From Ruminococcus sp. (GTDB lineage Bacteria > Bacillota > Clostridia > Oscillospirales > Ruminococcaceae), in contig JAFWTA010000010.1 in NCBI GenBank assembly GCA_017519145.1, positions 1 through 63,593 on the forward strand: a stretch of DNA of 63,593 bases. Direction: 5' to 3'. Shown piece after piece: positions 32,491 through 54,224 of the stretch. The notes beneath the pieces are model-generated. The model was not told where the DNA came from. It saw only the letters and a list, made by a program, of their open reading frames with translations, and searched no databases. Every line of letters starts with the position of its first letter. Position 1 is the first letter of the stretch. Both the position numbers and the translations under genes were made by a program.

Positions 32491-32520
32491 AAAAAAGAGT
32501 ACCTTGCGGTACTCTTTTTT
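32491..32520. terminator. Terminator of spoIVA
   Basis: AAAAAAGAGTACC, a TTGC loop and GGTACTCTTTTTT give a perfect symmetric stem adjoining the spoIVA stop codon. It works in both directions. Confidence 0.9.
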
Positions 32521-33995: not shown

Positions 33996-34009
33996 ATAAA
34001 TACTCCTTT

Positions 34010-37529: not shown

Positions 37530-37548
37530 AATATCTCCTCTCTGCTGT

Positions 37549-38610: not shown

Positions 38611-38632
38611 TCTCACACCGCCTTTATCCGTA

Positions 38633-38658
38633 GTTGAGAGTTGAGAGTTTAAAGTCAG
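38633..38658. repeat. Dispersed GTTGAGAGTTTAAAGTCAG element, copy 1
   Basis: Contains GTTGAGAGTTTAAAGTCAG. A related version is at 42110-42143 before the palindrome of the interspersed repeat. It lies between the kinase start and the exporter promoter region. Confidence 0.5.
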
Positions 38659-38729
38659 AACGTTCAACTCTCCACTTATTATAATTCTTTGCAAAAATAA
38701 TTATATCACGGCAGGGAAGTATTTGCAAG

Positions 38730-38764
38730 TGACATTTGCAAGGATGAAAATGTGACAAATGTCA
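38730..38764. promoter_or_regulatory. Inverted-repeat operator before ABC exporter
   Basis: TGACATTTG (38730-38738) and CAAATGTCA (38756-38764) are a perfect 9-bp inverted repeat. The right arm is also part of the smaller palindrome TGACA-AA-TGTCA. It lies about 45-80 nt upstream of the -10 TATAAT at 38812-38817, whose -35 is poor. This is the place for an activator, plausibly the response regulator of the adjacent divergent operon. Confidence 0.55.
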
Positions 38765-38851
38765 TCTCCGAAACTGACTGGGGACACTACAAAAGGGGAC
38801 TTTTCTGCGGTATAATAATGACAGTGAAAAACACAAAGGGAGGAATCCGAT

Positions 38852-39802
38852 ATGGAAAAGAACGTTGTTAAGATAAATGAACTGGTGAAGCGCTACGGCG
38901 ACCTCATCGCACTGGACCACTTCAGCCTTGAGATAAAGGAGGGTGAAGTCTTCGGACTTCTGGGACCCAACGGCTCCGGCAAGACCACTACCATAAACTG
39001 CCTGCTGTCGCTGCTTGCTTTCGACAAGGGCGATATCGAGATATTCGGAAAGAAGATGACGCCTGTCAGCTACGACATAAAGAAGGAGATAGGCGTCATC
39101 ATGCAGAATGTGGCAGTCTTTGAGGAGCTGACCGTATATGAGAACATCGACTACTTCTGCGGACTCTACATCACCGACAAGGCAAAGAGAAAGCAGTGCG
39201 TTGAGGAGGCAATAAAGTTCGTGGGACTGGAGGACTTCCGCAAGTTCTATCCCAAGAAGCTCTCAGGCGGACTTCTCCGCAGACTCAACATCGCCTGCGG
39301 CATCGCTCACAAGCCAAAGCTCATAATCCTTGACGAGCCCACAGTTGCCGTTGACCCACAGAGCCGAAACCGCATACTGGAGGGCATACAGGAGCTGAAC
39401 CGCAGCGGTGCCACGGTCATATACACCTCACACTACATGGAGGAGGTAGAGCAGATATGCACACGCATCGCCATCATGGACAAGGGCAGAAAGGTGGCAG
39501 AGGGCACCAAGGACGAGCTGAAGCGCATGATAAAGAACACCGAGACCATCACCATAGAGATACTTGAGCTTCCCGATGACGTCCGCAGAGAGATATCGGG
39601 ACTGCCCCACGTTTACGATGTGAGATTTGATGACAGCAAGCTCGTTATCGGCTGCTCGGGCGGCAAGCACAACCTTACAAGAGTGCTCGATGTGCTCCAG
39701 AAGCGCGAGCTCAGCTTCGGCAGAGTATACACAGAGCTCCCCACACTCAACGATGTGTTCCTTGAGATAACGGGCAAGGCTCTCAGAGACAAGGAGGATT
39801 GA
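38852..39802 (+). CDS. ABC transporter ATP-binding protein
   Basis: A 316-residue ATPase. Walker A is GPNGSGKTT (38-46), the signature LSGGLLRR, Walker B LIILDEPT, and the switch His is in YTSHYMEE. A C-terminal extension of about 90 residues is typical of ABC-2 exporters of the DrrA/NatA kind. GGGAGGAA precedes the ATG. It heads a three-gene operon with two permeases and lies opposite a two-component system. Substrate unknown; antimicrobial or lipid export is usual for this arrangement. Confidence 0.93.
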   Translation: MEKNVVKINELVKRYGDLIALDHFSLEIKEGEVFGLLGPNGSGKTTTINCLLSLLAFDKGDIEIFGKKMTPVSYDIKKEIGVIMQNVAVFEELTVYENIDYFCGLYITDKAKRKQCVEEAIKFVGLEDFRKFYPKKLSGGLLRRLNIACGIAHKPKLIILDEPTVAVDPQSRNRILEGIQELNRSGATVIYTSHYMEEVEQICTRIAIMDKGRKVAEGTKDELKRMIKNTETITIEILELPDDVRREISGLPHVYDVRFDDSKLVIGCSGGKHNLTRVLDVLQKRELSFGRVYTELPTLNDVFLEITGKALRDKED

Positions 39803-39804
39803 CA

Positions 39805-40938
39805 ATGTTTCTGCACATACTGAAATACGAGCTGAAAAACGGTGTCCGCACAAAGGACCTCATCATCTGGCTCATGGTCTTTCCCATAGTTCTCGGCACT
39901 TTCTTCAAGATAGCCTTCGGAAGCGTTTACAACAAGACCGAGAAGTTCAGTGCCATACCCGTTGCGGTGGTGGAGGAGACCGGGAACCCTGCATTCAGAC
40001 AGGTGCTTGATGGCATAGAGAGTGCCGATGAGCCATTCCTGAAGGTCACCTACGCCGACAGGGCAAAGGCGGAGGAGCTCCTTGACAGCGGCGATGTTGA
40101 GGGCATAATAAGCTCCGCCGACAAGCTGGGGCTGACGGTAAAGCAGAAGGGACTTGCCCAGACCATGCTGAAATCCTTCGTGGAGCAGTACACTCTCCGC
40201 GAGAAGATAGCAATGGATGCAATACAGACCTCTCCCGAAAAGGCACAGGAGATAATATCCTCACTTATGAGCGGCACGGTATCATCGTGCAGGGAGATAC
40301 CACTCACACAGGGCAATCCCGATATGTACATACAGTATTTCTACAACCTCATCGCCATGGTGGCAATGTTCGGCTGTATGACGGGAATGCACGTTACCAT
40401 GCAGAATCAGGCAAATCTCTCCGCTCTCGGAGCAAGGAACAACTGCTCGCCCGCGCCCAAGCTGGTGACCATTCTTGCCTGCCTTACGGGAAGCTTCATA
40501 TTGCAGACGGTATGTATGCTGCTGTGTGTCACATTTCTTGCGTTCGTGCTGAAGGTGGACTTCGGCGACAGACTGCCTCTTGTATATCCTGCGGCTATAC
40601 TGGGCGGCATAATGGGTGTATCCTTCGGCTTCTTCGTAGGCTCTGTGAGCCACATGAGCCAGAAGACAAAGACAGCGGTACTCATGTCGGCATCAATGCT
40701 GCTGTGCTTCCTCAGCGGACTCATGGTGGGCGACCTTAAAGGCACCATAGCTCAGAAGGCTCCATGGTTCAACGATATAAACCCTGCTGCGGTAGTTTCC
40801 GACAGCTTCTACTGCCTCAACATCGACGAGGACTACACACGCTTTATCACAAAGCTCATAACAATGGCAGTCATAACCGTTGTATTCATAATGCTCGGCT
40901 TTATCATATCAAGGAGGAAGAAGTATGCAAGTGTTTAA
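39805..40938 (+). CDS. ABC-2 type permease 1
   Basis: 377 residues. One N-terminal membrane helix, a large external domain (about 45-170), then five helices in the C-terminal half (ABC-2 membrane domain). The frame opens at a TTG 6 nt upstream, but the ATG at 39805 follows AAGGAGG by 7 nt. It begins 2 nt after the ATPase stop. It is clearly paralogous in layout to permease 2. Confidence 0.88.
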   Translation: MFLHILKYELKNGVRTKDLIIWLMVFPIVLGTFFKIAFGSVYNKTEKFSAIPVAVVEETGNPAFRQVLDGIESADEPFLKVTYADRAKAEELLDSGDVEGIISSADKLGLTVKQKGLAQTMLKSFVEQYTLREKIAMDAIQTSPEKAQEIISSLMSGTVSSCREIPLTQGNPDMYIQYFYNLIAMVAMFGCMTGMHVTMQNQANLSALGARNNCSPAPKLVTILACLTGSFILQTVCMLLCVTFLAFVLKVDFGDRLPLVYPAAILGGIMGVSFGFFVGSVSHMSQKTKTAVLMSASMLLCFLSGLMVGDLKGTIAQKAPWFNDINPAAVVSDSFYCLNIDEDYTRFITKLITMAVITVVFIMLGFIISRRKKYASV

Positions 40939-42106
40939 GACCATGTTCAGGGTAATGAGGAGCAGGCTCCCCTCAGCCATGATATACATAATCATATTCC
41001 TTGCAATATCCGCATTTGTCACCAGCCAGTCCACCAAGGACAACAAGTTCGAGATGAACAGGCTGAAGGTATGCGTATTCGACGAGGACGATACTCCCGA
41101 GAGCCGCGCACTTACGGAATTCATCGGAAAGCACAATGATATAGTTGAAATAGATAATAACAGGGACACCATCACCGATTCGCTGTACTACAAGACAGTG
41201 AACTACGCACTCATCATCAACAAGGGCTATGCAGAAAGGCTTGCCGCAGGGGAAACGGCTGAGCTTTTCGGCAGCTATCACATGGACGAGAGCTATTCCG
41301 TGGTCTATATGAGCAAGATGCTCGACGAGTACACAGGCTCCGTAAAGGCATACCTTGCCATGGGAAAGAGCTTTGAGGAAGCTGTCTCCGCCACAGAGGC
41401 GGCAATGTCTCAGGAGACAGAGGTAGAGATGCTGAGAGTTGACAAGGGGGGCGACTCTCACTTCAGCGTGGACTTCGCACAGTACTTCGAGTTCATGCCC
41501 TACATACTCATCTCCGTAATTATCAGCATAGTCAGTCTTGTTCTGGTGACCATGAACAAGAAGGACATACGCTACCGCACGAATTGCTCATGCCTGAAAA
41601 ACTCAAAGTACACCTTCCAGCTCTTTTTCGGAAGCTTCCTGTTCGTGCTGTTTATATGGCTCATATTCATGGTTGCGGGAACTGTCTTCAATAAGGAGAT
41701 GTACACAGGCAGAGCGTGGCTTGCAGTGCTCAACAGCTTCATATTCTCCATGGTCGTGGCAGCTCTTGCGGTATTTATAGCCAGCTTTGAGCCCAAGGAC
41801 AATATCCTCAACCTTATCACACAGGTTCTGGGACTGGGAATGAGCTTCTTATGCGGCGTATTCGTGCCCATGGAGATACTCAGCGACGGAGTCCTCTCAG
41901 CGGCGAGATTTCTTCCCGCATACTGGTACGTCAGGGCTAACCGCATGATAAGTGAGGAAGACGCATTCAGCTCCGAGGGCGTTATGAAGTGTATGCTGAT
42001 AGAGTGCCTGTTCATCGTGGTACTGGTACTCATGACGATTCTGGTGCGCAGACTGAGATACAGCAGCGCATCCATCGGTTCAGCTGTAAAAAAGGCAGCA
42101 GCCTGA
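40925..42106 (+). CDS. ABC-2 type permease 2
   Basis: 393 residues with the same plan: a first helix near IYIIIFLAISAF, an external domain to about 190, and five or six helices after it. It overlaps permease 1 by 14 nt, with AAGGAGGAAGAAGT just before the ATG, so translation is coupled. A heterodimeric membrane domain with one ATPase gene is likely. Confidence 0.88.
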   Translation: MQVFKTMFRVMRSRLPSAMIYIIIFLAISAFVTSQSTKDNKFEMNRLKVCVFDEDDTPESRALTEFIGKHNDIVEIDNNRDTITDSLYYKTVNYALIINKGYAERLAAGETAELFGSYHMDESYSVVYMSKMLDEYTGSVKAYLAMGKSFEEAVSATEAAMSQETEVEMLRVDKGGDSHFSVDFAQYFEFMPYILISVIISIVSLVLVTMNKKDIRYRTNCSCLKNSKYTFQLFFGSFLFVLFIWLIFMVAGTVFNKEMYTGRAWLAVLNSFIFSMVVAALAVFIASFEPKDNILNLITQVLGLGMSFLCGVFVPMEILSDGVLSAARFLPAYWYVRANRMISEEDAFSSEGVMKCMLIECLFIVVLVLMTILVRRLRYSSASIGSAVKKAAA

Positions 42107-42167: not shown

Positions 42168-42200
42168 AAAAAAGAGCGCACAGTTGTGCGCTCTTTTTAT
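42168..42200. terminator. Bidirectional terminator
   Basis: AAAGAGCGCAC pairs with GTGCGCTCTTT around AGTT, with A and T runs outside. It ends both the exporter operon and the 13-gene acyl operon. Confidence 0.9.
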
Positions 42201-42219: not shown

Positions 42220-42915
42220 TCAGAAGCCCAGCTTTTCTTTGATTATTCCGCAGACCTCTTCCTTGTGCTGCTGATAGTAGAAGTGACCGCCGGAGAATGG
42301 GTACACCTGACAGCTGCCGCTTGTGAACCTGCTCCAGCTGTTCATATCAACATTCTGCATAAGGGGATCCTCCTGACCGTAAAGCACGGTTATATCGCAG
42401 CCGAAGGTGACGTCCTCGGGGGAAGCGCTGTAGCGCTCAGCCATGCGGACATCGGTGCAGAGGATACGGTTGAGAGTCCTCATCAGCTCCTCGTCGGGGA
42501 CGGGAGCGGCTGTGGACAAGGAGTTTGCCGAGAAATATGAAACTATCTCGTCATCTGTGGCTTCATCGATGTTCTCGAAGCAGTGAACGTCCTCATCGGG
42601 AGGATTTTTTCCCGACAGGAAGATGTGCTTGGGAAGCGCCAGTCCCTTTTCCTTTGCCTGCCTTACCAGCTCTGTGACCAGTACCGTACCCATGCTGTGG
42701 CCGAAAAGCGCATAGTCCTCTCTGAGCAGCTCAGAATGCTTTTTAATGAGGTCCTCCGCGCAGCCCTGTACTGTATCGAGGAGGGGCTCGGAAGAGCGTG
42801 TAAAGCGTCCTGAGAGCTCCATAGGCACAACTGTCAGCTCTTTCGGGAGAAATCTCTTGAAGGAGCTGTAGCTTTTTGCGGAGCCCCCTGCATGGGGAAG
42901 AAAGAAAAGTATCAT
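42220..42915 (-). CDS. Type II thioesterase
   Basis: A 231-residue alpha/beta hydrolase of the GrsT/surfactin TEII type. It starts with FFLPHAGGSAKSY, has the nucleophile Ser74 in GHSMG, an Asp after VLYGQEDP and the catalytic His in FSGGHFYY. Such enzymes remove wrong or stalled acyl groups from carrier proteins, and sometimes release product. Last gene of the 13-gene operon, starting 1 nt after the carrier-protein stop. This gene is strong evidence that the cluster makes a natural product rather than ordinary fatty acids. Confidence 0.9.
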   Translation of the reverse strand: MILFFLPHAGGSAKSYSSFKRFLPKELTVVPMELSGRFTRSSEPLLDTVQGCAEDLIKKHSELLREDYALFGHSMGTVLVTELVRQAKEKGLALPKHIFLSGKNPPDEDVHCFENIDEATDDEIVSYFSANSLSTAAPVPDEELMRTLNRILCTDVRMAERYSASPEDVTFGCDITVLYGQEDPLMQNVDMNSWSRFTSGSCQVYPFSGGHFYYQQHKEEVCGIIKEKLGF

Positions 42916-42916
42916 A

Positions 42917-43168
42917 TCATTCCTCTGTGGGAGTGCCCTTTTCGTTGAGGAGGTCGAATATCTCGCCTACCTTGCTGATGGAAGCCACCAGTGAAAGGGG
43001 AACATTGAGCTTAAAAGTCTCTGTTATCTCGGAGCCGAGACCGAAAAGTCCCAGTGAATCGAGGAAAAGGTCGTCATAAACGTCTGTATCTCTTGTTATC
43101 TCCTCGGGGGCAACGCCTACATAATCGGAGATAGCCTGCTTGAATTCATCAAAATTAAGGTTATTCAT
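42917..43168 (-). CDS. Acyl/peptidyl carrier protein 2
   Basis: An 83-residue carrier protein. Ser38 in LFLDSLG is the phosphopantetheine site, and the predicted helices and acidic character fit the family. Its start overlaps the ligase stop by one base (TAATG). It probably receives the acyl-adenylate made by the ligase just upstream. No phosphopantetheinyl transferase is in the window, so the housekeeping enzyme or a distant gene must load it. Confidence 0.88.
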   Translation of the reverse strand: MNNLNFDEFKQAISDYVGVAPEEITRDTDVYDDLFLDSLGLFGLGSEITETFKLNVPLSLVASISKVGEIFDLLNEKGTPTEE

Positions 43169-44727
43169 TACTTATACTCCTTTTTTCTCAGGTATTTGAA
43201 CTGTATCTTGCCGATGTCCTTGGGTATCTCCTCAACGGGGACTACCTTGTCGGGCACCTTGTAAGCGGAGAGCTTTCCGTCGAAGTACTTGGCGATATCG
43301 CCTCTTGTTATCCTTGCATCGCCCTTGGGCTGGATATAGGCAACTATCTGCTGACCGATAACGGGGTGGGGCTCGTCTGTAACAGCTGCGGCAGCTATCA
43401 GAGGATGAGTGAGGAGACAAGCCTCTACTTCCTCAGCGTGAACGAGGTTTCCGCCGCGCTTGATGATACGCTTGCTTCTGCCTGCGAAACGTACTATGCC
43501 GTTGGGGAGCTTGTTTACAAGGTCGCCTGTACAGAACCAGCGGCGTCCCTGATCGTCTGTGAGTATCTTCTCTGCGGACAGCTCGGGATTGCCGAAGTAA
43601 TCTGTGATAACGCCGTCTGTGTATACGCAGAGCTCGCCGACCTCGCCCTCGGGAACATCGTTGTGCTTCTCGTCGATGACGCGGACGTCAGTGAAGCTGA
43701 GCTTGCGGAAGTCACTGGGGTCTGTGCCTGCGTCTCTTGCAGAGTCCCATACCACCATGGTGCAGGTCTCGGAGGAACCAATGACGTTTACCACACGGAT
43801 GTGGAGCTTCTCAACGAAGATATCGGCTATCTCCTTGGGGAGTACCTCTCCTGCGAAGTAGCAGATACGGACGCTTGAAAGGTCGTACTTGTCAAAATCG
43901 GGAGTTGAGAGCAGCACCTTTGCCAGAGTTGAGGTGAGCTGTATTATGTTTATCTTGTATTTCTGAACAGTTTCAAGGAAGGTGATGGGGTTGAACTGGG
44001 GCTGATACATAACAGTACCGCCCTTGAGCACCATCTGCTGACCCATACCGAAGCCGCCCTGATGATAGAGGGTCATGCCCAGCATCATTACATCGTCAGA
44101 CCTGAACTCGAGGTATGTGCCCATATCCTCCTGTGTGGACAGGAAGCCGCCCGAGGGAACGGACAGTATCTTGGGAGTACCCGTGCTGCCTGAGGTGCAG
44201 GCGAGAGACATGGTGTGGAGGTATTCGGGCTCATAGATATCGCACTCGCTGCTGCCGTACTCAGCCATGAACTTATCGGCGGAGATATAGCAGCTGTCCT
44301 GAGGGATAACGCTGTCATCGGCAAAGCAGATGACCTTGCTGAGAGCTATCTGTGAAGGAACGAGAGCGCTTACTGCGGCGATGATGTTGTTGTTCCTGTA
44401 CTTCTCTGTGATGAACATTACCTTTGATGTGGTAGCGGGAATGAGCTTTGAGAGCTCCATAGAGCCGCTCTGGGGGTCCATGGGAACAGGCTGGGCGCCT
44501 ATTCTTACAGCTGACCAGAATACCAGATACCACTCGATGCTGTTGGGCATACAGATGCCCACCTTGTCGTCCTCGCCGATGCCCATTTTCTTCAGAGCCG
44601 AGCCGAGAACGGCTGTCTTTTCCATGAACTGAGCGTATGTCAGCTCATTGTCGTCTATCCTCAGTACCACTTTGTCAGGAGTTTCCTGAGCAAAGCGGCT
44701 GTAGTAATCGAAAAACTTCTTTGACAT
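43168..44727 (-). CDS. AMP-dependent acyl ligase / adenylation enzyme
   Basis: A 519-residue member of the ANL superfamily, activating a carboxylic acid with ATP. The P-loop-like motif is CTSGSTGTPK, later motifs are GSSETCT and WFCTGDLV, and the closing Lys lies in KIQFKYLRK. Length fits free-standing acyl-CoA or acyl-ACP ligases. Its place next to a carrier protein suggests it loads a starter acid onto that carrier. The acid cannot be named from sequence. Confidence 0.92.
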   Translation of the reverse strand: MSKKFFDYYSRFAQETPDKVVLRIDDNELTYAQFMEKTAVLGSALKKMGIGEDDKVGICMPNSIEWYLVFWSAVRIGAQPVPMDPQSGSMELSKLIPATTSKVMFITEKYRNNNIIAAVSALVPSQIALSKVICFADDSVIPQDSCYISADKFMAEYGSSECDIYEPEYLHTMSLACTSGSTGTPKILSVPSGGFLSTQEDMGTYLEFRSDDVMMLGMTLYHQGGFGMGQQMVLKGGTVMYQPQFNPITFLETVQKYKINIIQLTSTLAKVLLSTPDFDKYDLSSVRICYFAGEVLPKEIADIFVEKLHIRVVNVIGSSETCTMVVWDSARDAGTDPSDFRKLSFTDVRVIDEKHNDVPEGEVGELCVYTDGVITDYFGNPELSAEKILTDDQGRRWFCTGDLVNKLPNGIVRFAGRSKRIIKRGGNLVHAEEVEACLLTHPLIAAAAVTDEPHPVIGQQIVAYIQPKGDARITRGDIAKYFDGKLSAYKVPDKVVPVEEIPKDIGKIQFKYLRKKEYK

Positions 44728-44729
44728 TC

Positions 44730-45851
44730 TTATTTTCCCCCATTAAGTCTTGCAGCTATGAAGTCTGCTGCGATGTGCTTTACCCAGTGGTACTGCTCGC
44801 CCACCGGCATAGCGTGCATGATGGTCTCCTCTGAGACATAAGCGGGCTTATCCTCTATGTGGATGCATTCCTTGTATCCCTTTGCCTTGTCAAGGAGCTT
44901 CTGTGAAGCCTCGGGAGTCATCCAGTTGTCGTCGCTGCTGTAAACCATGAGGAAGTCGGACTTGTGAGTGCCCTCCTCAAGCTTTCTCATACCCTCAAGG
45001 TAATCGTCGCTGTACTGGTAGGAGCTCCACTTGCCGCGCTTCATCCATACGGGGATGCTGTCCTGATCGGCGAAGTTCATAAGGAGCGGGAACAGGCTCA
45101 CGCATACCTTTGCGTTCTTGCGCTTTACAGTTGAGCGGAATGCATAGCCGCCGCCCATGCAGAGACCGAAGTTGCCCAGATCTGTGCTGCTGAGCTTGTC
45201 GGTGCTGTCGATGAACTTGTATATGCCCTCAAATGCAGCCTCTATCTGCTTGCCGCCGCACTTGATGCCGTTGTGTATGATAGCACCGCCTGCACCGGGC
45301 ATATCGGGAGTGATAACTGCGATGCCTCTCTCATTGAGGGGAGCAGCCAGCATTTCCAGCTCCTCCTTGCAGCTTCCGATGCCCGAGTAGGTGATAACTA
45401 CGGGATATTCCTTTTTTCTGCCCGAATCGGGATAGTGTATGTAAGCGGGGAGCTTGCCGAACTTTGTATCTATCTCCACATACTGTATCTTGTTTTTGCA
45501 GAGCCTGATATAGCGCTTGTAGCTCTCCTCGAGGCCGCTGTAGATCTCTCTCTTGTGTTCAACGTCTTCGATATTTATCATAAAGCAGGCATAATGGCAC
45601 TGTGCCACCATTCTTGCATATTCTCTTGCGGAGATCCTGTTGCCGGCTGCTTCAGCCTTGTCGCGGAGCTCGGCATAGCGGTCGATCTTTGCGTGCCATT
45701 CTTCGAGCCATACATTCTGTATCTGCTTGCCGCTCTTGACTTTTATACCATCTATCTTCTTGAGGATATACTCAAGATCGAAGGGGTCAGCGCCATAGAG
45801 TAAGGATCGTGTTGCCACGGGATTGAGAAGGTCTCTGATTGCCCATTTCAT
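44730..45851 (-). CDS. Alpha/beta hydrolase with Cys nucleophile
   Basis: 373 residues. An alpha-helical N-terminal half (to about 125) precedes an alpha/beta hydrolase domain. The nucleophile elbow reads GLCMGGG, with Cys231 where most relatives (FrsA, DUF1100) have Ser; the acid is likely Asp in YSSDDNW and the base a His near YHWVKH. Dienelactone-hydrolase-like enzymes use such a Cys. In this operon it could release or cyclise the carrier-bound product. It starts 24 nt after the MIF-like gene and ends 2 nt before the ligase start. Confidence 0.75.
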   Translation of the reverse strand: MKWAIRDLLNPVATRSLLYGADPFDLEYILKKIDGIKVKSGKQIQNVWLEEWHAKIDRYAELRDKAEAAGNRISAREYARMVAQCHYACFMINIEDVEHKREIYSGLEESYKRYIRLCKNKIQYVEIDTKFGKLPAYIHYPDSGRKKEYPVVITYSGIGSCKEELEMLAAPLNERGIAVITPDMPGAGGAIIHNGIKCGGKQIEAAFEGIYKFIDSTDKLSSTDLGNFGLCMGGGYAFRSTVKRKNAKVCVSLFPLLMNFADQDSIPVWMKRGKWSSYQYSDDYLEGMRKLEEGTHKSDFLMVYSSDDNWMTPEASQKLLDKAKGYKECIHIEDKPAYVSEETIMHAMPVGEQYHWVKHIAADFIAARLNGGK

Positions 45852-45875
45852 ATTTATCTTTTCCTTTCATTTATG

Positions 45876-46232
45876 TCAGCCTGTATAGCGCCATGCGCCC
45901 TCACGGGTCATTTCCGTGAACTGCATATATATGCGGTAAGGGTCGACTTTAGTATGCTTTTGTATGAGACTGAGCATCCTGTCAGCCAGTTCTTTAAGAA
46001 ATGCGGACTTGTCGTCGGCATATTCCTGAGGGAGGATGTATCTGAACTCTGCGAAGAATACAGTATCCTCCGAGCGGTTCATGTACATGGCGCAGTCATC
46101 CAGCATGACCATTATGGCGGGCAGGGGCTTTTTAAGTATATCAGCCAGCTCTGCCGCAGCCTCATCGAGGAAGCTTGTCTTTGCTGCAGGGGAGCTGAAC
46201 CTGAAATTTGTCTTCATCTGTGCTATCGGCAT
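45876..46232 (-). CDS. MIF-like tautomerase
   Basis: 118 residues, the usual size for macrophage migration inhibitory factor relatives. After Met comes Pro2, which would be the catalytic N-terminal proline after Met removal. KKPLPAIMVML matches the Lys-Pro-Pro segment that lines the MIF active site, and DPYRIYMQFTEM near the end matches the family's last conserved strand. These proteins interconvert keto and enol forms. Inside an operon with ketosynthase and carrier proteins, it may act on a beta-keto or enol intermediate. Confidence 0.75.
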   Translation of the reverse strand: MPIAQMKTNFRFSSPAAKTSFLDEAAAELADILKKPLPAIMVMLDDCAMYMNRSEDTVFFAEFRYILPQEYADDKSAFLKELADRMLSLIQKHTKVDPYRIYMQFTEMTREGAWRYTG

Positions 46233-46264
46233 GATAATTTATCCTTTCATCGGAGCTGAGCGAC

Positions 46265-47476
46265 TCAGCCCTCGTATCTCCTGAGTACCAGTGTGGCGTT
46301 GTGTCCGCCGAAGCCGAATGAGTTTGAGATAGCAACATCTACCTTGTGCTCCTGAGGCTTGTTGGGAACGTAGTTGAGGTCAAGCTCGGGGTCGGGCTCG
46401 TCATAGTGGATAGTGGGAGGAACGAGACCTGTCTCGATAGCCTTGATGCAGGCAATAGCCTCCAGAGCGCCGCCTGCGCCGAGGGTGTGACCTATTGAAG
46501 CCTTTACAGATGACATGGGGATATCGTAAGCCCTCTTGCCGAAGACCTCCTTTACCGCCATAGTCTCATAGAGGTCGTTGAGACCTGTTGATGTGCCGTG
46601 AGCGTTGATGTAGTCAACATCGTCGGGTGTGAGACCTGCATTGTCCAGAGCCATTCTCATGGACTCAGCCATGCCAACGCCGTCGGTCTTGGGAGCTGTC
46701 AGGTTATAAGCCTCGCCGCACATTGCAGCGCCTGCAAGCTCGCAGTATATCTTAGCGCCTCTTGCCTTTGCCGATTCCTCCGACTCAAGGATAACGGTGC
46801 CGCCGCCTTCGCCCATGATGAAGCCGTCACGGTTCTTTGTGAAGGGGCGTGCAGCTGTGTCGGGGTCGGGATTTACGGACATTGCGAGAAGCTGATTGAA
46901 TCCGCTTATTACAAGGTGAGTTACTGTATTCGAGATGCCTCCTGCGACCACCATATCGCAGAGACCCGATTCGATGAACTGCTTTCCGAGAGCGATGGCA
47001 TACGCGGATGAAGCGCAGGCTGTGCTCACATTGAAGGCAGGTCCTGTGAAACCATATCTTATTGAAACCAGTGCGGGGAGCTCATTGGGCATTTTCTTCA
47101 GCGTTATGTTGAGGGGCTTTTCAAGCTCATAGTCCTCATAGGAGTTATCTATAACACCGTAGATAACGCCGACCTTTCTGCCGTCATAGGTCTCTGTATC
47201 AACGCCGCAGTCAGCGATAGCCTCGCCTGCGGAAGCCAGACCCATTCTTGTTGTGGTAGTTGTAGCGTTGAGCTGGCGCTTTTTCCAGTACTTGCCTGCC
47301 TCTGCCTCGAAGGAGTCATCCACCTCGGCAGCAACAGTAGTATCATGATTATCAAGAGGGATACGGGTGATAGTTCTCATTCCGCATTTGCCGGAAATGA
47401 GCCCGTCCCAGTAATCTGCGGCAGTATTGCCCACAGAAGTCACGGCACCTATGCCTGTGATAACAACTTTTTTCAT
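46265..47476 (-). CDS. Beta-ketoacyl-ACP synthase (FabF-like ketosynthase)
   Basis: A 403-residue condensing enzyme. The full triad is present: Cys154 in STACASS, His293 in NAHGTSTGLND, and His330 with Lys325 in VKASIGHTLG. It should therefore both accept an acyl chain and condense it with malonyl-ACP, unlike decarboxylase-only variants with Ser or Gln. FabF-type motif GFGGHN is at the C-terminus. It lies in the middle of the 13-gene operon, and the only ketosynthase here implies an iterative or single-condensation pathway. Confidence 0.95.
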   Translation of the reverse strand: MKKVVITGIGAVTSVGNTAADYWDGLISGKCGMRTITRIPLDNHDTTVAAEVDDSFEAEAGKYWKKRQLNATTTTTRMGLASAGEAIADCGVDTETYDGRKVGVIYGVIDNSYEDYELEKPLNITLKKMPNELPALVSIRYGFTGPAFNVSTACASSAYAIALGKQFIESGLCDMVVAGGISNTVTHLVISGFNQLLAMSVNPDPDTAARPFTKNRDGFIMGEGGGTVILESEESAKARGAKIYCELAGAAMCGEAYNLTAPKTDGVGMAESMRMALDNAGLTPDDVDYINAHGTSTGLNDLYETMAVKEVFGKRAYDIPMSSVKASIGHTLGAGGALEAIACIKAIETGLVPPTIHYDEPDPELDLNYVPNKPQEHKVDVAISNSFGFGGHNATLVLRRYEG

Positions 47477-47504
47477 AACCTTACCTCATATCTCCTGAAA
47501 TGTG

Positions 47505-48626
47505 TTACTTGAAGAGCGCATCCCATGCACTCTTATCCATGTATGAATACGAGCCGAAGCCTGTCTTTGCGCTGAGCTCATCGAGAGCTGCGAAAAGTGC
47601 CTCTGCACCGTATTTATCATAGTAGAAGGCGGGAGCCTCGGCGAGTCCGAGAGTATCCTGCACCGCCTCTGTAAGAACAGCGGTATCGCCGCTGTAATCA
47701 TTTGCGGCATTGACTGTTTCATTGAGTATCAGAGCTGCCATATAAAGAGCAGCCTTTCCGCAGTCTGCGCCTGTTTCGCTCTCACGCTCAGCCATGAAGT
47801 CAAGGAAGCTGAGAGTTTCCTTGGGGCAGCCCTCTGCCAGCCAGCCGTTCATCTTTTCACAGCCGTAGCCGAGGAGACCCTTGTTGCGCTCTATGCGGAA
47901 GTTATCGGGGCTGCCTGCCATGAGTCCGAGACCCACGCTGTCCAGCACCTCGAAGGGGTCGGCAATTGAGAACATCTCTCCCAGAGCCTTTCTCACCTCG
48001 GGCACTGAAGCGCCGAAGCTCTCTCTCAGGTAGATAGCGTGAGAGACCATGCAGGCGAGTATCTGGTTGAGATAGATGTGGTATTCGCCCGAGAAGACTA
48101 TGGGCTTCTTGCCCGCAGCCTTTACCAGCTGTGCAGCCTTTTCCGCGGAAGTCTCCGATGTCTCGGGGAGCACATTGAGCTCCACGAAGCCTGTGAGCTT
48201 TACGGGGTAGAAGAAGTGCAGACCGAAGCAGCGCTCCTTGTGGGGAATATCCGCGAATACCGAGGGGATATCCAGCGATGATGTATTTGAAAGCAGCAGG
48301 CAGTCATCCGAGACAGCTGCGGCTGCTTTTGCAAACAGCTCCTTCTTGGCGTCCATGTTCTCGAAAACGGCTTCTATGACAACGTCACAGCCGCTTAGAG
48401 CAGAGATATCGTCAGTGAATACGAAGGAGTCCTTCTTGAATTCGTACTGCTCCTCGGTGAGCTTCCTGCGCTTCAGGCTCTTGCCGAGGGTCTTGAGAAC
48501 GGCTGCGGTATTCTCCTCAGCGCCGAAGAGGTCGATGACCACGAACTGCGCGTCGGGGAGCTTGTCAAAGAACAGGGAAAAGATATCCTTTCCCATTTTT
48601 CCGTAGCCCACTATTCCTATTTTCAT
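47505..48626 (-). CDS. 3-hydroxyacyl-CoA dehydrogenase-like protein
   Basis: 373 residues. Rossmann NAD-binding motif GYGKMG (7-12); SNTSSLDIPSV and GLHFFYPV with the catalytic His; then a C-terminal dimerisation domain (DPFEVLDSVGLGL). A further 90-residue extension recalls the doubled C-terminal domains of some family members. In beta-oxidation direction it makes beta-keto from beta-hydroxy; here it could reduce the ketosynthase product, taking the role a FabG-type reductase has in fatty-acid synthesis. It starts 2 nt after the crotonase stop. Confidence 0.92.
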   Translation of the reverse strand: MKIGIVGYGKMGKDIFSLFFDKLPDAQFVVIDLFGAEENTAAVLKTLGKSLKRRKLTEEQYEFKKDSFVFTDDISALSGCDVVIEAVFENMDAKKELFAKAAAAVSDDCLLLSNTSSLDIPSVFADIPHKERCFGLHFFYPVKLTGFVELNVLPETSETSAEKAAQLVKAAGKKPIVFSGEYHIYLNQILACMVSHAIYLRESFGASVPEVRKALGEMFSIADPFEVLDSVGLGLMAGSPDNFRIERNKGLLGYGCEKMNGWLAEGCPKETLSFLDFMAERESETGADCGKAALYMAALILNETVNAANDYSGDTAVLTEAVQDTLGLAEAPAFYYDKYGAEALFAALDELSAKTGFGSYSYMDKSAWDALFK

Positions 48627-48628
48627 AT

Positions 48629-49333
48629 TTATGCCTCCCTGCTTTTCTTGTAGGAGTCCATGTACTCCTTATAGCGTGAGGGGTCAAAGTCTCCGAAGTT
48701 TGCGGAGATATACTCAATAAGGCTTACAGCCTCGGGAACGCCCTGCTTCTTGTCGGCGAAGATATCAGCCCAGCCGAGAGCGAATGCATCATCTGCGGAT
48801 ACCAGCTCGCCCGACATAACGAGAGTATATGCGTTCTGAGTGCCGCATATCTCGATAGTTCTTGCAACGCCGCCGAGAGCGGGGAGAATGCCGAATGTGG
48901 ATTCGGGCTGACCTACTCTTGCGTTCTTCTCGATTATCCTGTAATGGCTGTTGACAGCTATCTCGCTGCCCGAACCGATACAGAAGCCCGTTACCACGCT
49001 TACCACGGGGAACGGGAGCTCTCTCAGGAATGTGAAGAAGTGCTTCTGTCTGATGTGTCCCTCGGGGAGCACTCCTGTTGAGTCGTCGTAGGTCTCGTTT
49101 GCGGAACGGTCGGCAAGAGCGTCAACATCGGCGCCAACGCTGAAGTGGCGGCCTGCGCCCTTGATTATAAGTCCCTTATATTTTCCGGCGGAAGCCTTAG
49201 CCTCGATGTCAGCCATGACTGCTTCGTATTCCTTGAAGAAATCGGCTGTCATAAGGTTATTGCCTGCCATATTCATGGAGAGTATCAGGATGCCGTCCTG
49301 CTCCTCCAGTATCATACCGTTATTTTCATTCAT
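48629..49333 (-). CDS. Enoyl-CoA hydratase/isomerase-family protein 1
   Basis: A 234-residue crotonase. Oxyanion-hole segments GRHFSVGADVDAL and FCIGSGSEIAV are present, and QPESTFGILPALGG keeps one catalytic Glu. The glycine of the usual GGG in the second segment is partly replaced (GSGS). It overlaps the degenerate crotonase gene upstream by 8 nt, with GGAGG before its ATG. It likely dehydrates a beta-hydroxyacyl or shifts a double bond on the carrier. Confidence 0.9.
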   Translation of the reverse strand: MNENNGMILEEQDGILILSMNMAGNNLMTADFFKEYEAVMADIEAKASAGKYKGLIIKGAGRHFSVGADVDALADRSANETYDDSTGVLPEGHIRQKHFFTFLRELPFPVVSVVTGFCIGSGSEIAVNSHYRIIEKNARVGQPESTFGILPALGGVARTIEICGTQNAYTLVMSGELVSADDAFALGWADIFADKKQGVPEAVSLIEYISANFGDFDPSRYKEYMDSYKKSREA

Positions 49334-49766
49334 TGGAGTTACCTCCGTTCTTGTCAGCCATCAGTCGGTAGAAGGCTCTCGACTCTGTGGCAAGTACCTC
49401 CTCCGCAGGAGCTGTACGCGCCTTGATGAAGCAGGCGTTTATCTCCTTTATCTGCTTTTTTGTCTTGTCCTTGAAAAGCTTTGCGGCGTATTCGTCGGCC
49501 TCATCGGCTCTCAGTACCAGATCGGCAGCGGAAGCCAGCTCATCGCTGATATCGCCCTCCGATACCACAGCCGTCATGAAGTCAGCCTCTGCAAGGAACC
49601 TTGCTGCCTCAGCCTTTTCGCTGTCGTCACTGCCGAGAACTGTCCCGTCCCCGACATACATGAGCAGCAAGCAAGGCTCGCCGAGCTGCTCTCTTTCCTG
49701 TGAGAGCTGATACAGCGAGCTTAACTGACAAACTTTTGTCACAATATCATCTGCGGTTATTGTCAT
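49326..49766 (-). CDS. Degenerate crotonase-fold protein
   Basis: 146 residues. Only traces of the enoyl-CoA hydratase fold remain. ADFMTAVVSEGDISDELASAADLVLRADE aligns by eye with the second oxyanion segment of crotonases but lacks the glycines, and the C-terminal INACFIKARTAPAEEVLATE matches the final crotonase helices. The region that binds CoA is shortened. It overlaps both flanking genes (20 nt upstream, 8 nt downstream), so it is translated with them and is not an accident of frame. A structural partner of the active crotonase beside it is plausible. Confidence 0.55.
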   Translation of the reverse strand: MTITADDIVTKVCQLSSLYQLSQEREQLGEPCLLLMYVGDGTVLGSDDSEKAEAARFLAEADFMTAVVSEGDISDELASAADLVLRADEADEYAAKLFKDKTKKQIKEINACFIKARTAPAEEVLATESRAFYRLMADKNGGNSNE

Positions 49767-50169
49767 TGTCTTCGTCTTCCCCCTCGAGACAAGCCCTTAC
49801 CGCCTCGGGGATATCGCAGATGATGCGTTCCTTGTTGACGTAGGCGAGCTTGCCTGTGACTCTGCATGAAACAAGACCCGTGCTCTTGTTTATGATGTTA
49901 TGCTTATAGCTGACTATGCCCCCCGAGCAGGAGACCTCAGTGTCTATCCTTACTTCATCGAGGAGCCTCAGCTCATGTATGTATCTCTGGGTGCTTTCCA
50001 TCACAACGGGAAAAAGCCCTTCTTCCACGATCACTGCCAGCAGGCCGTGTACCTTGAAGAAGTTCCACAGAGCTGTCTCTGCGTACTGAAGGTAAACGGA
50101 ATTGTTGACATGACCGAAAGAATCAAGTTCATATCCTCTTACAGTCAGTCTGTATGAGCTTCTTCTCAT
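49747..50169 (-). CDS. Hot-dog fold acyl thioesterase (4HBT family)
   Basis: 140 residues. The 4-hydroxybenzoyl-CoA thioesterase signature is clear: YELDSFGHVNNSVYLQYAE, with Asp16, His20 and Asn22-Asn23, then a helix and the beta-sheet core. It would hydrolyse an acyl-CoA or acyl-ACP. It overlaps the upstream crotonase by 4 nt (ATGA). With a type II thioesterase and an alpha/beta hydrolase, the operon has three possible release enzymes. Confidence 0.88.
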   Translation of the reverse strand: MRRSSYRLTVRGYELDSFGHVNNSVYLQYAETALWNFFKVHGLLAVIVEEGLFPVVMESTQRYIHELRLLDEVRIDTEVSCSGGIVSYKHNIINKSTGLVSCRVTGKLAYVNKERIICDIPEAVRACLEGEDEDNDNNRR

Positions 50170-50885
50170 TGTTTTGAAGCCTCCGCCAGAGCTGCTTCAA
50201 ATTTGCCCTTTGAGGGGTCTTCAGCGCCCTCTGAGGCAAGATTTATGGTATCGATTATAGCCCGTATCTGCGTAAGGTTCTTGCCGCTGAGCAGCTCCTT
50301 TACAAAGGCAACGGTCTCATCGAATGAATTCCTGTTCTCACTGAGCTTTGTGACGAGTCCCATCTCTGACGCTTCCTTAGCGCCTATCATCTCGCCGCAG
50401 AGTATCATGCTGAGCGCCTTTTCCCTGCCCAGCAGCCTGTACAGGCGCTCCATACCGCCCATACCGGGAACAACGCCGTGCATTATCTCGGGGAGCCCGA
50501 GAAAAGCAGAAGGTGAAGCTATCCTGAACTGACAGCTCAGTGCTATCTCAAGTCCGCCGCCGAAGCATCCGCCGTTGATGGCAGCTGCGGTTATCAGCGG
50601 GAGCTTCTCTATTGTACGCAGAAGCTCTCTTGCGTTTTCGAGCTTTGCCGAAAGGTCAGTGCCGCCTGCCTCGCCGAAAAGGGAAACATCGGCGCCGTGG
50701 GAGAAATGTCTGCCCTTGCCTGTAATGATAAGAGCTCCCACCTGAGGATTTTCGTCCAGCCAGCCGAGGAGCTCCTTACGGTCTATGAATTCGGGCTCGG
50801 AGAGAAGATTCTTCGGGCCGTTGTCAATGGTAAGTACAGCAATATTATCCTCGGCATGAAGCTCAGATAAATTTGACTTTAACAT
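50166..50885 (-). CDS. Enoyl-CoA hydratase/isomerase-family protein 2
   Basis: A 239-residue crotonase with well-kept motifs: GRHFSHGADVSLF, GGCFGGGLEIALSC and LPEIMHGVVPGMGG with a catalytic Glu. More canonical than copy 1. It starts 9 nt after carrier protein 1. Pairs of crotonases with a free carrier protein and ketosynthase recall beta-branching cassettes of trans-AT polyketide systems, but the HMG-CoA-synthase enzyme those need is absent. Confidence 0.92.
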   Translation of the reverse strand: MLKSNLSELHAEDNIAVLTIDNGPKNLLSEPEFIDRKELLGWLDENPQVGALIITGKGRHFSHGADVSLFGEAGGTDLSAKLENARELLRTIEKLPLITAAAINGGCFGGGLEIALSCQFRIASPSAFLGLPEIMHGVVPGMGGMERLYRLLGREKALSMILCGEMIGAKEASEMGLVTKLSENRNSFDETVAFVKELLSGKNLTQIRAIIDTINLASEGAEDPSKGKFEAALAEASKQ

Positions 50886-50894
50886 TCAGACCTC

Positions 50895-51197
50895 TCACTG
50901 ATTGACGATGTCGTTGCCGTACTGATAGATCTTGCAGAACATCTCTACAACGTCGCTCATAGTGTCCATGGGAGCCTTGAGCATATACTTGCCGATGCTC
51001 TGGAGCTTGATGTCCATGTCATACTTGTCTGCTGTCATCTCTATAAGCTCAACGAACATGAGTGAATCGCTTCCCAGATCCTCCTGAGGATTGGTCTCCA
51101 TAGTGATCTCGCTCTTGTCTACTTCACATTCCTCTGCGTAGTAGTCGAAGATCATATCCTTGATTTCCTGTCTGATCTCATCTGTGATCTCTCTCAT
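50895..51197 (-). CDS. Acyl carrier protein 1
   Basis: 100 residues. Phosphopantetheine Ser45 is in DLGSDSLMFVEL, a normal ACP motif, with acidic helices around it. The ATG at 51197 has GGAGG 7 nt before it; an upstream in-frame start at 51233 does not. It follows the acyltransferase gene by 63 nt, so it is probably the malonyl or chain-carrying ACP, while carrier protein 2 beside the ligase takes the starter. Confidence 0.9.
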   Translation of the reverse strand: MREITDEIRQEIKDMIFDYYAEECEVDKSEITMETNPQEDLGSDSLMFVELIEMTADKYDMDIKLQSIGKYMLKAPMDTMSDVVEMFCKIYQYGNDIVNQ

Positions 51198-51260
51198 AAT
51201 AAAACCTCCATAATAATTGTCTTTCCCTTTCATTGGGTGTGCTTATATTTATCTGAAAAT

Positions 51261-52151
51261 TCACACATCTTCGAGAGTGTAAATTTTGCATTTTCTGCTT
51301 ACCCGTGAGAACTTGCTCACGGCGCCGTTTGCGCTGACGTCGAAGAATTCCCTGACGCCCAGCTCCTCCAGCTTCTGAACTGCCAGATCCCAGCGTATGG
51401 GGGTATACACGTTCAGCTGGTTTTCTCTCATCACCTGATCCCCCGTAGTCATGACCTCTCTGTCGAAGATGGAGAGTATGGGGTAGATGGGAGCCTTATA
51501 TACAGTAGAAGCGCAGAAATCGACATATTCCTGCGAATACTTCTTCATGATGGGGTGGTGGTAGGCAACGCCCGTACCGAAGCTGAAAGCCTTGATGGCG
51601 CCCTCGTTCTGACAGAGGAGAAGAGCCTTCTCAACGGCGTCTGCCTTGCCGCTTACCATGACATGGAACCTTGAGTTGCCGCTTCCGATGACCAGCTCGT
51701 CGGGAGAGAACTTACCCTCGAAGAGCTCCTCGATATCGCTGTATGAGAAGCCGATGACAACGCCCATATCCAGCTTTTCGTCGTGCTCCTCGAGACAGCG
51801 CATGGTAGCGCGGTTCATCATGATGATGTCATGTGCGAATTCATGGGGCACCGAGCCGAAACAGCCGCTTATGCTGACTATTCCCGAGCTGTATCCCGCG
51901 CCGATGTCGGGGATGATGCCCTTGTCTATGAAATGCTCAAAGACGACCCTGTCGCAGATGAGTGAGATTATCCACTCGGCGACTCTGCCGTCGTAAGCCT
52001 TGTTTTTTTCGAGATCCATGCTGAGCCCCAGCCTGCCGAAAGCCTCGCCGAGGTAGTGCTCATACCTGTCCATAAGTTCAGGCGGCAGCTTGACCAGAAG
52101 CTTTTCGGGCTTTGAGCCGATGCCGTTGAACAGGAATGCCCTATTGTACAT
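51261..52151 (-). CDS. FabD-like acyltransferase
   Basis: A 296-residue acyl-CoA:ACP transacylase. The nucleophile motif is GYSSG (86-90, Ser88) in place of the usual GHSxG, and the catalytic His is in AYHHP (about 198-199). FLFNGIGSK at the start is the usual QGxGSQ-like opening, though altered. The His-to-Tyr change next to the nucleophile may alter acyl choice. First gene of the operon, with AAGGAG before its ATG and a palindrome-containing promoter upstream. Confidence 0.82.
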   Translation of the reverse strand: MYNRAFLFNGIGSKPEKLLVKLPPELMDRYEHYLGEAFGRLGLSMDLEKNKAYDGRVAEWIISLICDRVVFEHFIDKGIIPDIGAGYSSGIVSISGCFGSVPHEFAHDIIMMNRATMRCLEEHDEKLDMGVVIGFSYSDIEELFEGKFSPDELVIGSGNSRFHVMVSGKADAVEKALLLCQNEGAIKAFSFGTGVAYHHPIMKKYSQEYVDFCASTVYKAPIYPILSIFDREVMTTGDQVMRENQLNVYTPIRWDLAVQKLEELGVREFFDVSANGAVSKFSRVSRKCKIYTLEDV

Positions 52152-52180: not shown

Positions 52181-52209
52181 ATATTAACACCTATTTAAGG
52201 TGCTGTCAA
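52181..52209 (-). promoter_or_regulatory. Promoter of acyl operon with palindrome in spacer
   Basis: On the minus strand, TTGACA (52204-52209), a 17-nt spacer and TAATAT (52181-52186). The spacer contains CACCT-N5-AGGTG (52188-52202), a perfect 5-bp inverted repeat. A dimeric repressor bound there would block RNA polymerase directly. Confidence 0.7.
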
Positions 52210-54124: not shown

Positions 54125-54224
54125 TATATGTACAAAGAACTGTAATTTTTTTCGGCTGCGTACAAGCAGATTGAGGAGGGTTACGGGGGATTGTAAAAAA
54201 TAATAACGAAAGGATGGAATGACC

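Follow-up and report, generated by a model that had tools for sequence, protein, structure and literature searches.

The genome of a member of the Ruminococcus flavefaciens group carries a genuine 13-gene operon. We read it as encoding an acyl carrier protein (ACP)-bound, iterative type II route, polyketide or fatty acid-like, to a conjugated polyene. The likeliest product would be the yellow pigment of R. flavefaciens or the polyene core of that pigment, a reading to which we give a probability of about 0.4. Positions given below are those of the window, the whole stretch of 63,593 nucleotides (nt) that was analyzed.

Operon structure and conservation

In the list of open reading frames (ORFs), 13 ORFs of 83 to 519 amino acids (aa) follow one another in the same orientation on the minus strand (52151 to 42220). 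With start codons as re-chosen, overlaps between neighboring ORFs reach 20 nt and gaps do not exceed 32 nt. Thus, the compact minus-strand operon described in an earlier sequence-only reading stands; the gaps given there were 1 to 63 nt. A promoter-like site with an extended −10 (TTGACA-17-TAATAT; 52181..52209, minus strand) lies about 30 nt before gene 1 and matched 10/12 positions in a consensus scan that found 11 such sites across the region versus 9.3 in shuffles. A hairpin of 13 pairs (42169..42198), a possible terminator, lies between the end of the operon and converging transporter genes; the scan gave 16 terminator-like sites across the region versus 9.1 in shuffles. The converging neighbor, outside the operon core, is an ABC-2 exporter consisting of an ATPase and two permeases (38852..42106, plus strand). 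Of 56 loci (L026 to L081), 22 have exporter genes close to the operon; in the other 34, some of which are cut by contig ends, none were found beside it. In this genome, a two-component system also adjoins the operon, alongside the exporter. When three proteins were given to PADLOC as a check for a defense system, there were no matches.

All the genes except the fast-evolving gene 5 are present, in a single order, in 41 of 56 loci from GTDB genomes, and 14 of the other 15 loci touch a contig end; these counts rest on 56 of 67 loci, 11 other stretches, several plainly from the same contigs, having been left out. The gene set and order are kept even where the proteins share only 29 to 73% identity with those of the window (L076 and L077), which excludes a chance assembly. 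The tested catalytic residues are invariant, save for one gap, over 42 to 54 rows per gene (rows of 0.85 to 1.2 times the median length, without duplicates and with the window included).

Gene 10 was found in 51 of 125 genomes of the genus and not in the other 74. No ortholog of it outside the genus appeared in samples of 394 genomes from the order and 391 from the class; in the class sample, the best match besides the gene itself scored 51 bits versus 745. In the samples searched beyond the genus, the operon was represented by nothing more than weak matches of single genes. By tblastn, the other 12 core genes were all missing from five regions around high-ranking matches (two of them short contigs), which gave only two weak matches to the gene 10 protein and three general ABC-ATPase matches. 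The operon is thus apparently restricted to the genus. Within it, identities of the operon ketosynthase (KS) and of FabF were correlated (Spearman 0.62 over 20 genomes, the pairs not being independent). However, the presence of the operon needs nine changes, at least four of them by well-supported branches, on a quick FabF tree of 41 sequences (one row, G110, is an outlier), a pattern that may reflect gains as well as losses. A clade of 11 on this tree that holds this genome and ATCC 19208 consists entirely of operon carriers. A link to cellulolysis through GH48 was uninformative, since carriers and noncarriers alike have GH48 (112/125 genomes of the genus and 68/68 good genomes).

Enzymes encoded by the operon

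Gene 8 (46265..47476, minus strand, as are all the genes below) encodes the KS, a stand-alone FabF-type enzyme of 403 aa (PDB 3o04, E = 5e-103). Its Cys154, His293, Lys325, and His330 are invariant in 52/52 rows; the intact triad noted in the sequence-only reading is therefore borne out, and the FabF-type KS with Cys-His-His of type II fatty acid synthesis (FASII) is present in the operon (52/52). Gene 7 (47505..48626) encodes a 3-hydroxyacyl dehydrogenase of the Hbd type that diverges in its C-terminal part (Pfam 3HCDH_N, E = 7e-38) and whose closest PDB relative is a 3-hydroxybutyryl-CoA dehydrogenase (4kue, E = 1e-22). Ser116, His137, Glu149, and Asn187 are invariant (53/53), and we propose that it acts as the ketoreductase.

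Two crotonases retain both catalytic glutamates in 52/52 rows: ECHa (gene 3, 50166..50885; Pfam ECH_1, E = 7e-37; PDB 3pea, E = 2e-34) has Glu113 and Glu133, and ECHb (gene 6, 48629..49333; ECH_1, E = 1e-23) has Glu124 and Glu144. Two rows of the ECHa set (L050 and L073) in fact belong to ECHb, and one row of the ECHb set (L036) to ECHa; the Glu pair is common to both proteins. Gene 5 (49326..49766) is a degenerate, fast-evolving pseudo-crotonase. It has no meaningful Pfam match, but its family profile matched that of ECHa (hhalign probability 83.5, E = 8e-6), although not that of ECHb, and it is fused to ECHb in three MAG loci (L067, L071, and L079), findings that uphold the earlier description of a degenerate third crotonase. 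The L071 fusion gave a confident predicted model (pLDDT 91, pTM 0.90), for which the best Foldseek match was DspI (E = 1e-13), with ordinary crotonases close behind (E = 5e-13 to 2e-11) among the 50 matches listed. Gene 5 is a possible partner of ECHb.

The acyltransferase (AT; gene 1, 51261..52151) is a divergent FabD-like protein of uncertain specificity (PDB 1mla, E = 8e-13); against NCBIfam fabD it gave E = 1e-20, yet only 74 bits against a cutoff of 261. Ser88 and His198 are invariant (50/50). However, the alignment column that we take to be the malonyl-carboxylate-binding Arg of FabD holds Asn or His in 46/50 rows, and the adjoining Arg is lost in 8/50. Because this column is not conserved, malonyl loading by AT, and with it the earlier claim that the acyltransferase loads the extender, is doubtful.

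There are two carrier proteins, ACP1 (gene 2, 50895..51233; Pfam PP-binding, attachment Ser57 in 42/42) and ACP2 (gene 12, 42917..43168; PP-binding, E = 7e-9, Ser38 in 44/44). The genome has two PF01648 genes, both away from the operon, and no PPTase is among the 13. LIG (gene 11, 43168..44727; Pfam AMP-binding, E = 3e-60) is an AMP-forming acyl ligase and the proposed starter ligase; 52 rows show no variation at 209 of its 519 positions, a larger fraction than for any other of the 13 genes. Its PDB relatives were uninformative. This gene content favors the carrier-protein pathway with a ligase-supplied starter that had been suggested.

Gene 10 (44730..45851) encodes ABH, an AntI/Yg1/DHPON hydrolase-like lyase. 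Its alpha/beta hydrolase family matches in Pfam and NCBIfam are weak and below cutoffs, and its relatives by both sequence and fold are PDB 2jbw, AntI, and Yg1, with AbyA5 a weaker relative by fold; its model (pLDDT 82.8) matched 8qbh with a Foldseek E of 1.2e-16 and a TM of 0.70. AntI/Ayg1/Wdyg1 lyases and DHPON hydrolase resemble ABH in sequence and fold, and polyketide-trimming enzymes from pigment pathways are among its nearest folds. Whereas the AntI/Yg1 lyases have a Ser nucleophile (described as Ser245 in AntI), ABH has Cys231, invariant with Asp308 and His355 in 54/54 rows. The 373-aa protein, called a hydrolase before, hence belongs to a family that includes polyketide-trimming lyases and has an invariant Cys nucleophile.

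The MIF-like tautomerase seen previously is gene 9 (45876..46232), which just exceeds the Pfam MIF cutoff (22.6 bits versus 22). All 53 rows start with MP, and Pro2 (Pro1 after Met removal), Lys35, and Tyr102 are likewise invariant (53/53); in a sample of the phylum, gene 9 was found in its own genome only (1/398). Gene 4 (49747..50169) encodes a hot-dog 4HBT-type thioesterase (Pfam 4HBT_2, E = 3e-18; Asp16 and His20, 50/50), and gene 13 (42220..42915) encodes a type II thioesterase (Pfam Thioesterase, E = 3e-31; Ser74 and His211, 50/50). Among the Pfam and NCBIfam matches of the 13 genes, there was no SDR reductase, enoyl reductase, or HMG-CoA synthase, as had been noted. Nor did the 13 include an acyl-CoA dehydrogenase, a thiolase, or a KASIII; the KS alone gave weak thiolase and KASIII matches.

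Proposed pathway and its alternatives

We infer the reactions, their iteration, and the pigment product from this gene content. LIG would activate a carboxylic acid and transfer it to ACP2, and the AT-like protein may shuttle acyl groups between carriers; malonyl would be supplied by that protein or by the housekeeping FabD. The KS would perform the condensation, the Hbd-type enzyme would reduce the 3-keto group, with (S)-3-hydroxyacyl-ACP as the presumed product, and ECHa and ECHb/gene 5 would dehydrate it, a division of labor that the sequence-only reading had predicted and that the gene content supports. Because the operon has no enoyl reductase, double bonds would accumulate, giving a conjugated polyene. 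The MIF-fold enzyme may then tautomerize the last, unreduced beta-keto intermediate, which the Cys lyase ABH would release or trim, and the 4HBT and type II thioesterases would release or proofread. The short product first suggested is not borne out, since iteration of one KS, reductase, and dehydratase without an enoyl reductase would give a polyene, and a branched one has no support in the absence of an HMG-CoA synthase. Against the polyene, a housekeeping enzyme may carry out enoyl reduction. Moreover, neither ABH nor MIF is required to make a simple polyene.

An unlikely but substantial alternative is that the pathway stops after one to three cycles at an unsaturated acyl compound of short or medium length, which would serve as a diffusible signal or decorate a lipid rather than be a pigment, with a DspI/RpfF-like crotonase dehydrating and releasing the enoyl acid. 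The DspI match of the gene 5-ECHb model, the two free thioesterases, the two crotonases with a full Glu pair, and the two-component system and exporter beside the operon here would fit such a product. But DspI leads many ordinary crotonases by a narrow margin, drawing on FAS intermediates would leave no need for a dedicated KS and dehydrogenase, and just 22 of the 56 loci have the exporter nearby. Another alternative is an exported antibiotic-like polyketide (pyrone, tetronate, or furanone) whose ring would be shaped by ABH and MIF, with the converging exporter giving self-protection and color incidental or absent. The exporter ATPase is DrrA-like, although it scores below the DrrA family cutoff, ABH resembles AntI and Yg1 and, more weakly, AbyA5, and celluxanthenes are described as antibacterial (PMC12144888). 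With the exporter not found in 34 loci, some cut by contig ends, and only the weak KASIII match on the KS, we consider an exported antibiotic rather improbable. Catabolism, too, employs ligases, 3HCDH, crotonases, and thioesterases, so that a catabolic or salvage route using carrier proteins, for example, for plant phenylpropanoid degradation, was considered. It is very improbable: neither acyl-CoA dehydrogenase nor thiolase is encoded, apart from the weak thiolase matches on the KS, whereas the FabF-type KS has its catalytic residues in place and the two ACPs have invariant attachment serines.

Comparison with known systems

Literature searches turned up no described pathway matching the operon, in agreement with the sequence-only reading, whose author knew of none with this exact set. 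FASII uses FabG, FabZ, and an enoyl reductase, whereas the operon has none of the three and has 3HCDH and crotonases instead. Aryl polyene (APE) systems, which build a polyene on an aryl starter, comprise a ligase, two ACPs, a KS, a reductase, a dehydratase, and a thioesterase and share iterative type II logic with the operon; however, their ketoreductase is an SDR and their dehydratases are hot-dog proteins. The operon has neither, and its one hot-dog protein scores as a 4HBT thioesterase. In clostridial butyrate formation, Hbd and crotonase run in the reducing and dehydrating direction. Both folds, with residues intact, are in the operon (gene 7 and ECHa), but a KS replaces thiolase, ACPs are present, and there is no butyryl-CoA dehydrogenase.

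Beta-branching cassettes have an HMG-CoA synthase and a decarboxylating KS lacking Cys; the operon has no such synthase, and its KS Cys is intact. Such cassettes, for example haliangicin hli as described, do resemble the operon in having a free ACP and two crotonases, and hli also has a 3HCDH, which serves methoxymalonyl-ACP. The DSF synthases RpfF and DspI share the crotonase fold and both glutamates with ECHa and ECHb, a likeness that extends to ordinary crotonases and is unspecific.

The cex/faf genes for celluxanthene/flavoaffinin come from Clostridium thermocellum, likewise a cellulolytic anaerobe, and make a yellow cellulose-associated polyene (PMC12144888). As described there, cex/faf and the operon both have an AMP ligase, an ACP, and an alpha/beta hydrolase (operon genes 10 to 12, by family match). 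In contrast, cex/faf has an iterative type I polyketide synthase (CexF), whereas the operon's sole KS stands alone. The cex/faf cluster has two KASIII and a PPTase, neither of which is among the 13 genes, and the operon, unlike cex/faf, has the Hbd/crotonase loop and the MIF tautomerase.

Possible link to the yellow pigment

R. flavefaciens takes its name from a yellow pigment that is described as a characteristic trait of the species, seen especially on cellulose; rabbit cocci lacking the pigment were considered closer to R. albus. We found no genes for this pigment in the published literature, and R. flavefaciens DSM 25089 is reported to have no cex cluster and no celluxanthenes (PMC12144888, 2025). 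A carotenoid origin was rejected: PF00494 occurred in 0/125 genomes of the genus but in 7/14 controls. We infer that the operon, that of a cellulose-digesting rumen bacterium, is a good candidate. Exactly two KS matches, presumably FabF and the operon KS, were found in 33 of the 51 operon-bearing genomes, and exactly one in 62 of the 74 others. The named strains YAD2003, YL228, MA2007, Y1, and 007c have two KS each. A single carrier had one match, and 17 had three or more; ATCC 19208 has 3, ND2009 has 6, FD-1 has 7, and SAb67 has 21 (19 in another count), so another polyketide synthase could color those strains.

Several observations count against the link. R. albus KH2T6 carries the operon, and in one paper R. 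albus and R. flavefaciens isolates were both yellow on cellulose. Pigmentation is ascribed to many cellulolytic ruminococci, yet gene 10 was not found in 74 of 125 genomes. Nor is a role of the pigment in cellulose digestion a given, since deletion of the pigment genes of C. thermocellum is reported to leave growth and cellulose use unchanged (PMC12144888).

Implications

In its most specific form, our reading is that the yellow cellulose-linked pigment of R. flavefaciens is made by a type II polyketide line with a butyrate-type (S)-hydroxyacyl loop on carriers, a pseudo-crotonase partner, a Cys trimming lyase, and a MIF-fold tautomerase; we hold this tentatively, as somewhat unlikely to be right in every part. 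If it were true, yellow pigmentation would have arisen at least twice among cellulose degraders, each time from unrelated enzymes. Should the chemistry proceed as we read it, the operon would encode a polyketide line in which the Hbd and crotonase of butyrate fermentation replace FabG and FabZ, and it would place a MIF-fold enzyme in bacterial biosynthesis. With one conserved, intact candidate operon, the question of the R. flavefaciens pigment becomes testable.

Conservation of the operon and its distribution

The window is one of the 65 contigs (C15) of a 3.17-Mb genome and contains an operon of 13 ORFs running from 52151 down to 42220. Scanning GTDB genomes with gene 10 (ABH, an alpha/beta hydrolase) gave 56 named loci, titled Ruminococcus, Oscillospiraceae, or, in one case, Bacillota. 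Isolates among them are nine strains of R. flavefaciens (SAb67, ND2009, YAD2003, YL228, MA2007, Y1, FD-1, 007c, and ATCC 19208) and R. albus KH2T6; the remaining 46 come from MAGs or from uncultured-Ruminococcus assemblies. On the basis of these loci, the nearest of which is 99% identical across gene 10, the window is placed in the R. flavefaciens group.

Wherever the genes were found in the 56 loci, a single order was kept: AT-ACP1-ECHa-4HBT-gene 5-ECHb-3HCDH-KS-MIF-ABH-LIG-ACP2-TE2. It is this cross-locus comparison that defines the operon unit. Even the most distant loci (L076 and L077), whose proteins are 29 to 73% identical to those of the window, have the same gene order. Leaving gene 5 aside, the full set of 12 genes is present in 41 of the 56 loci, and 14 of the 15 incomplete loci reach a contig border. 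At L078, which lies away from a contig border, there was no match to the gene for 4HBT, a hot-dog thioesterase. Two contigs of one MAG, L036 and L050, have operon copies with internal gaps: in the comparison of the 56 loci, L036 had no true ECHb (a crotonase), and L050 had no ACP1, ECHa, 4HBT, 3HCDH, or MIF. The pair may be a reduced second copy or an assembly mosaic.

Gene 10 occurs in 51 of the 125 genus genomes, including 28 of the 68 good ones. No ortholog was found outside the genus in the order sample (394 genomes, including the window's own), which gave three weak matches of 25 to 28% identity, or in the class sample (391 genomes), in which the next best score was 51 bits versus 745 for the window's own gene. 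The MIF-fold gene was found in only 1 of 398 phylum genomes, the window's own.

Surroundings of the operon

About 30 nt upstream of gene 1 is a TTGACA-17-TAATAT site with an extended -10, and between the last gene and a converging transporter is a 13-pair hairpin; both came from scans that are weak evidence alone. Adjoining the operon, at 36900 to 42106, are a two-component system and a DrrA/SagH-like ABC-2 exporter that converges on it. Flanks vary among loci, and such an exporter is close to the operon in 22 of the 56.

The window also encodes two apparent giant surface proteins. An open frame (54219 to 63593, plus strand) that runs off the window end would encode at least 3,125 amino acids (aa); it has a signal-like start, long linkers of poly-Thr, and numerous similar repeats, and by its appearance it resembles a giant SpaA-type surface adhesin. 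The other, of 2,587 aa (4981 to 12744, plus strand), contains a DUF285 region as well as five stretches of the SpaA prealbumin-like kind. A 673-aa protein (12837 to 14858, plus strand) combines domains of nucleotidyltransferase, cytidylyltransferase, and PEP mutase, which suggests phosphonate decoration of a surface polymer. SpoIVA, with all three domains, adjoins a SipL/SPOCS-LysM protein at 32520 to 35542 (minus strand); these are spore-coat genes in a lineage that is not known to sporulate.

Catalytic residues and predicted chemistry

Residues were counted over deduplicated rows (42 to 54 per gene) after length outliers were dropped; their presumed roles were assigned from known families and PDB alignments. 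The attachment Ser is invariant in both carrier proteins (42/42 in ACP1, 44/44 in ACP2), as are Cys-His-Lys-His of the FabF-type ketosynthase KS (52/52), Ser-His-Glu-Asn of the dehydrogenase 3HCDH (53/53), both Glu of each crotonase (52/52), and Pro, Lys, and Tyr of the tautomerase MIF (53/53). The same holds for Cys-Asp-His of ABH (54/54), the hot-dog Asp of 4HBT (50/50), and Ser and His of both the type II thioesterase TE2 and the FabD-like acyltransferase AT (50/50 each). In the acyl ligase LIG, Lys186 is present in 52/52 rows and Lys507 in 51/52, with one gap. Judged by these residues, the enzymes of the operon look active.

The malonyl-binding Arg column of AT holds Asn in 37 rows, His in 9, and other residues in 4 (n = 50), and the adjacent Arg is retained in 42 of 50. 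Since the malonyl Arg is not kept, the extender may come from the housekeeping FabD, which is present in the same genome, and AT may instead transfer some other acyl group.

Gene 5 looks like a degenerate crotonase. In three MAG loci (L067, L071, and L079), it forms a single protein of 386 to 389 aa with ECHb, and the model of the L071 fusion is confident (pLDDT, 91; pTM, 0.90), which suggests that gene 5 is a partner subunit. The best 50 Foldseek matches listed for that model are crotonases aligned across 209 to 272 columns of 386 residues, and thus the fold of gene 5 itself had no separate match among them.

By PDB comparison, the reductase of the operon is of the Hbd kind and the dehydratases are of the crotonase kind. 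Clostridial Hbd and crotonase work together in the reducing direction on (S)-3-hydroxy substrates, in contrast to the (R)-route of FabG and FabZ.

We infer every step of the polyene mechanism that follows. LIG and ACP2 would supply a starter, KS would condense it with malonyl-ACP, the Hbd-type enzyme would reduce, and the crotonases would dehydrate. Because the operon has no enoyl reductase, each turn of this loop would add one more conjugated double bond. The fold of MIF suggests keto-enol tautomerization, which would act on a last unreduced keto group ahead of ABH.

The PDB relatives of ABH by sequence are 2,6-dihydroxypseudooxynicotine hydrolase, AntI, Yg1, and FrsA. When the predicted fold was compared, AntI ranked first (E = 1.2e-16; TM, 0.70), followed by the same set, with AbyA5 at rank 19. 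AntI is described in the available text of PMC11165489 as trimming and off-loading an ACP-bound polyketide, a retro-Claisen step included. Unlike AntI, ABH has Cys as its nucleophile, and thus C-C cleavage and an acyl-enzyme or transacylation step are equally likely.

The yellow pigment of R. flavefaciens

The predicted polyene is a candidate for the yellow pigment of R. flavefaciens. No carotenoid synthase was found in the 125 genus genomes. The operon is carried (as L072) by ATCC 19208, which we take to be DSM 25089. As far as the accessible text of PMC12144888 goes, the pigment of C. thermocellum was identified as celluxanthenes, and DSM 25089 has no cluster like that for celluxanthenes (cex) and no detectable celluxanthenes. 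Flavoaffinins are C. thermocellum compounds with the same formulae as celluxanthenes (PMC11839114, in part). Excerpts of two reviews single out a yellow pigment, seen especially on cellulose, as characteristic of R. flavefaciens (PMC8865330, PMC9653558), and a passage in PMC9785684 has many cellulolytic ruminococci yellow or orange, with an intensity that roughly tracks cellulolytic ability.

Exactly two KS matches were counted in 33 of the 51 genomes that carry gene 10, more than two in 17, and a single one in 1; of the 74 genomes lacking gene 10, 62 have a single match, 11 have more, and 1 has none. That two matches mean FabF plus the operon KS was checked in part: in the window's genome, in the named strains (by frame length and contig), and in a set of 20 genomes. 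A quick tree was built from 41 hand-chosen FabF proteins (21 from carriers and 20 from noncarriers); in it, the 11-member clade that holds the window's genome consists of carriers only. Two genomes, G058 and G134, have 19 scored KS matches each; most of the matches listed sit on a single contig, where the frames reach ∼3,100 aa, predicting a very large modular PKS in this rumen genus.

Other observations weigh against the link. One paper reports yellow growth for isolates of R. albus as well as R. flavefaciens (PMC11055587), and GH48 did not discriminate between carriers and noncarriers. Of the 9 named R. flavefaciens strains, 4 exceed two KS, whereas YAD2003, YL228, MA2007, Y1, and 007c have just two. 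In C. thermocellum, growth and cellulose use of the pigment mutant matched those of the wild type (PMC12144888). No chemistry for this operon was found in the literature.

Comparison with known families

In the accessible text of the open-license PMC literature, in which absence is not proof, neither this operon nor a polyene line using such a reductive loop was described. Each family tested has at least one defining feature not found here, except the MIF and DSF synthase families, for which the comparison concerns one gene only each. The parts of the operon are known folds, and it follows the scheme of iterative type II synthases.
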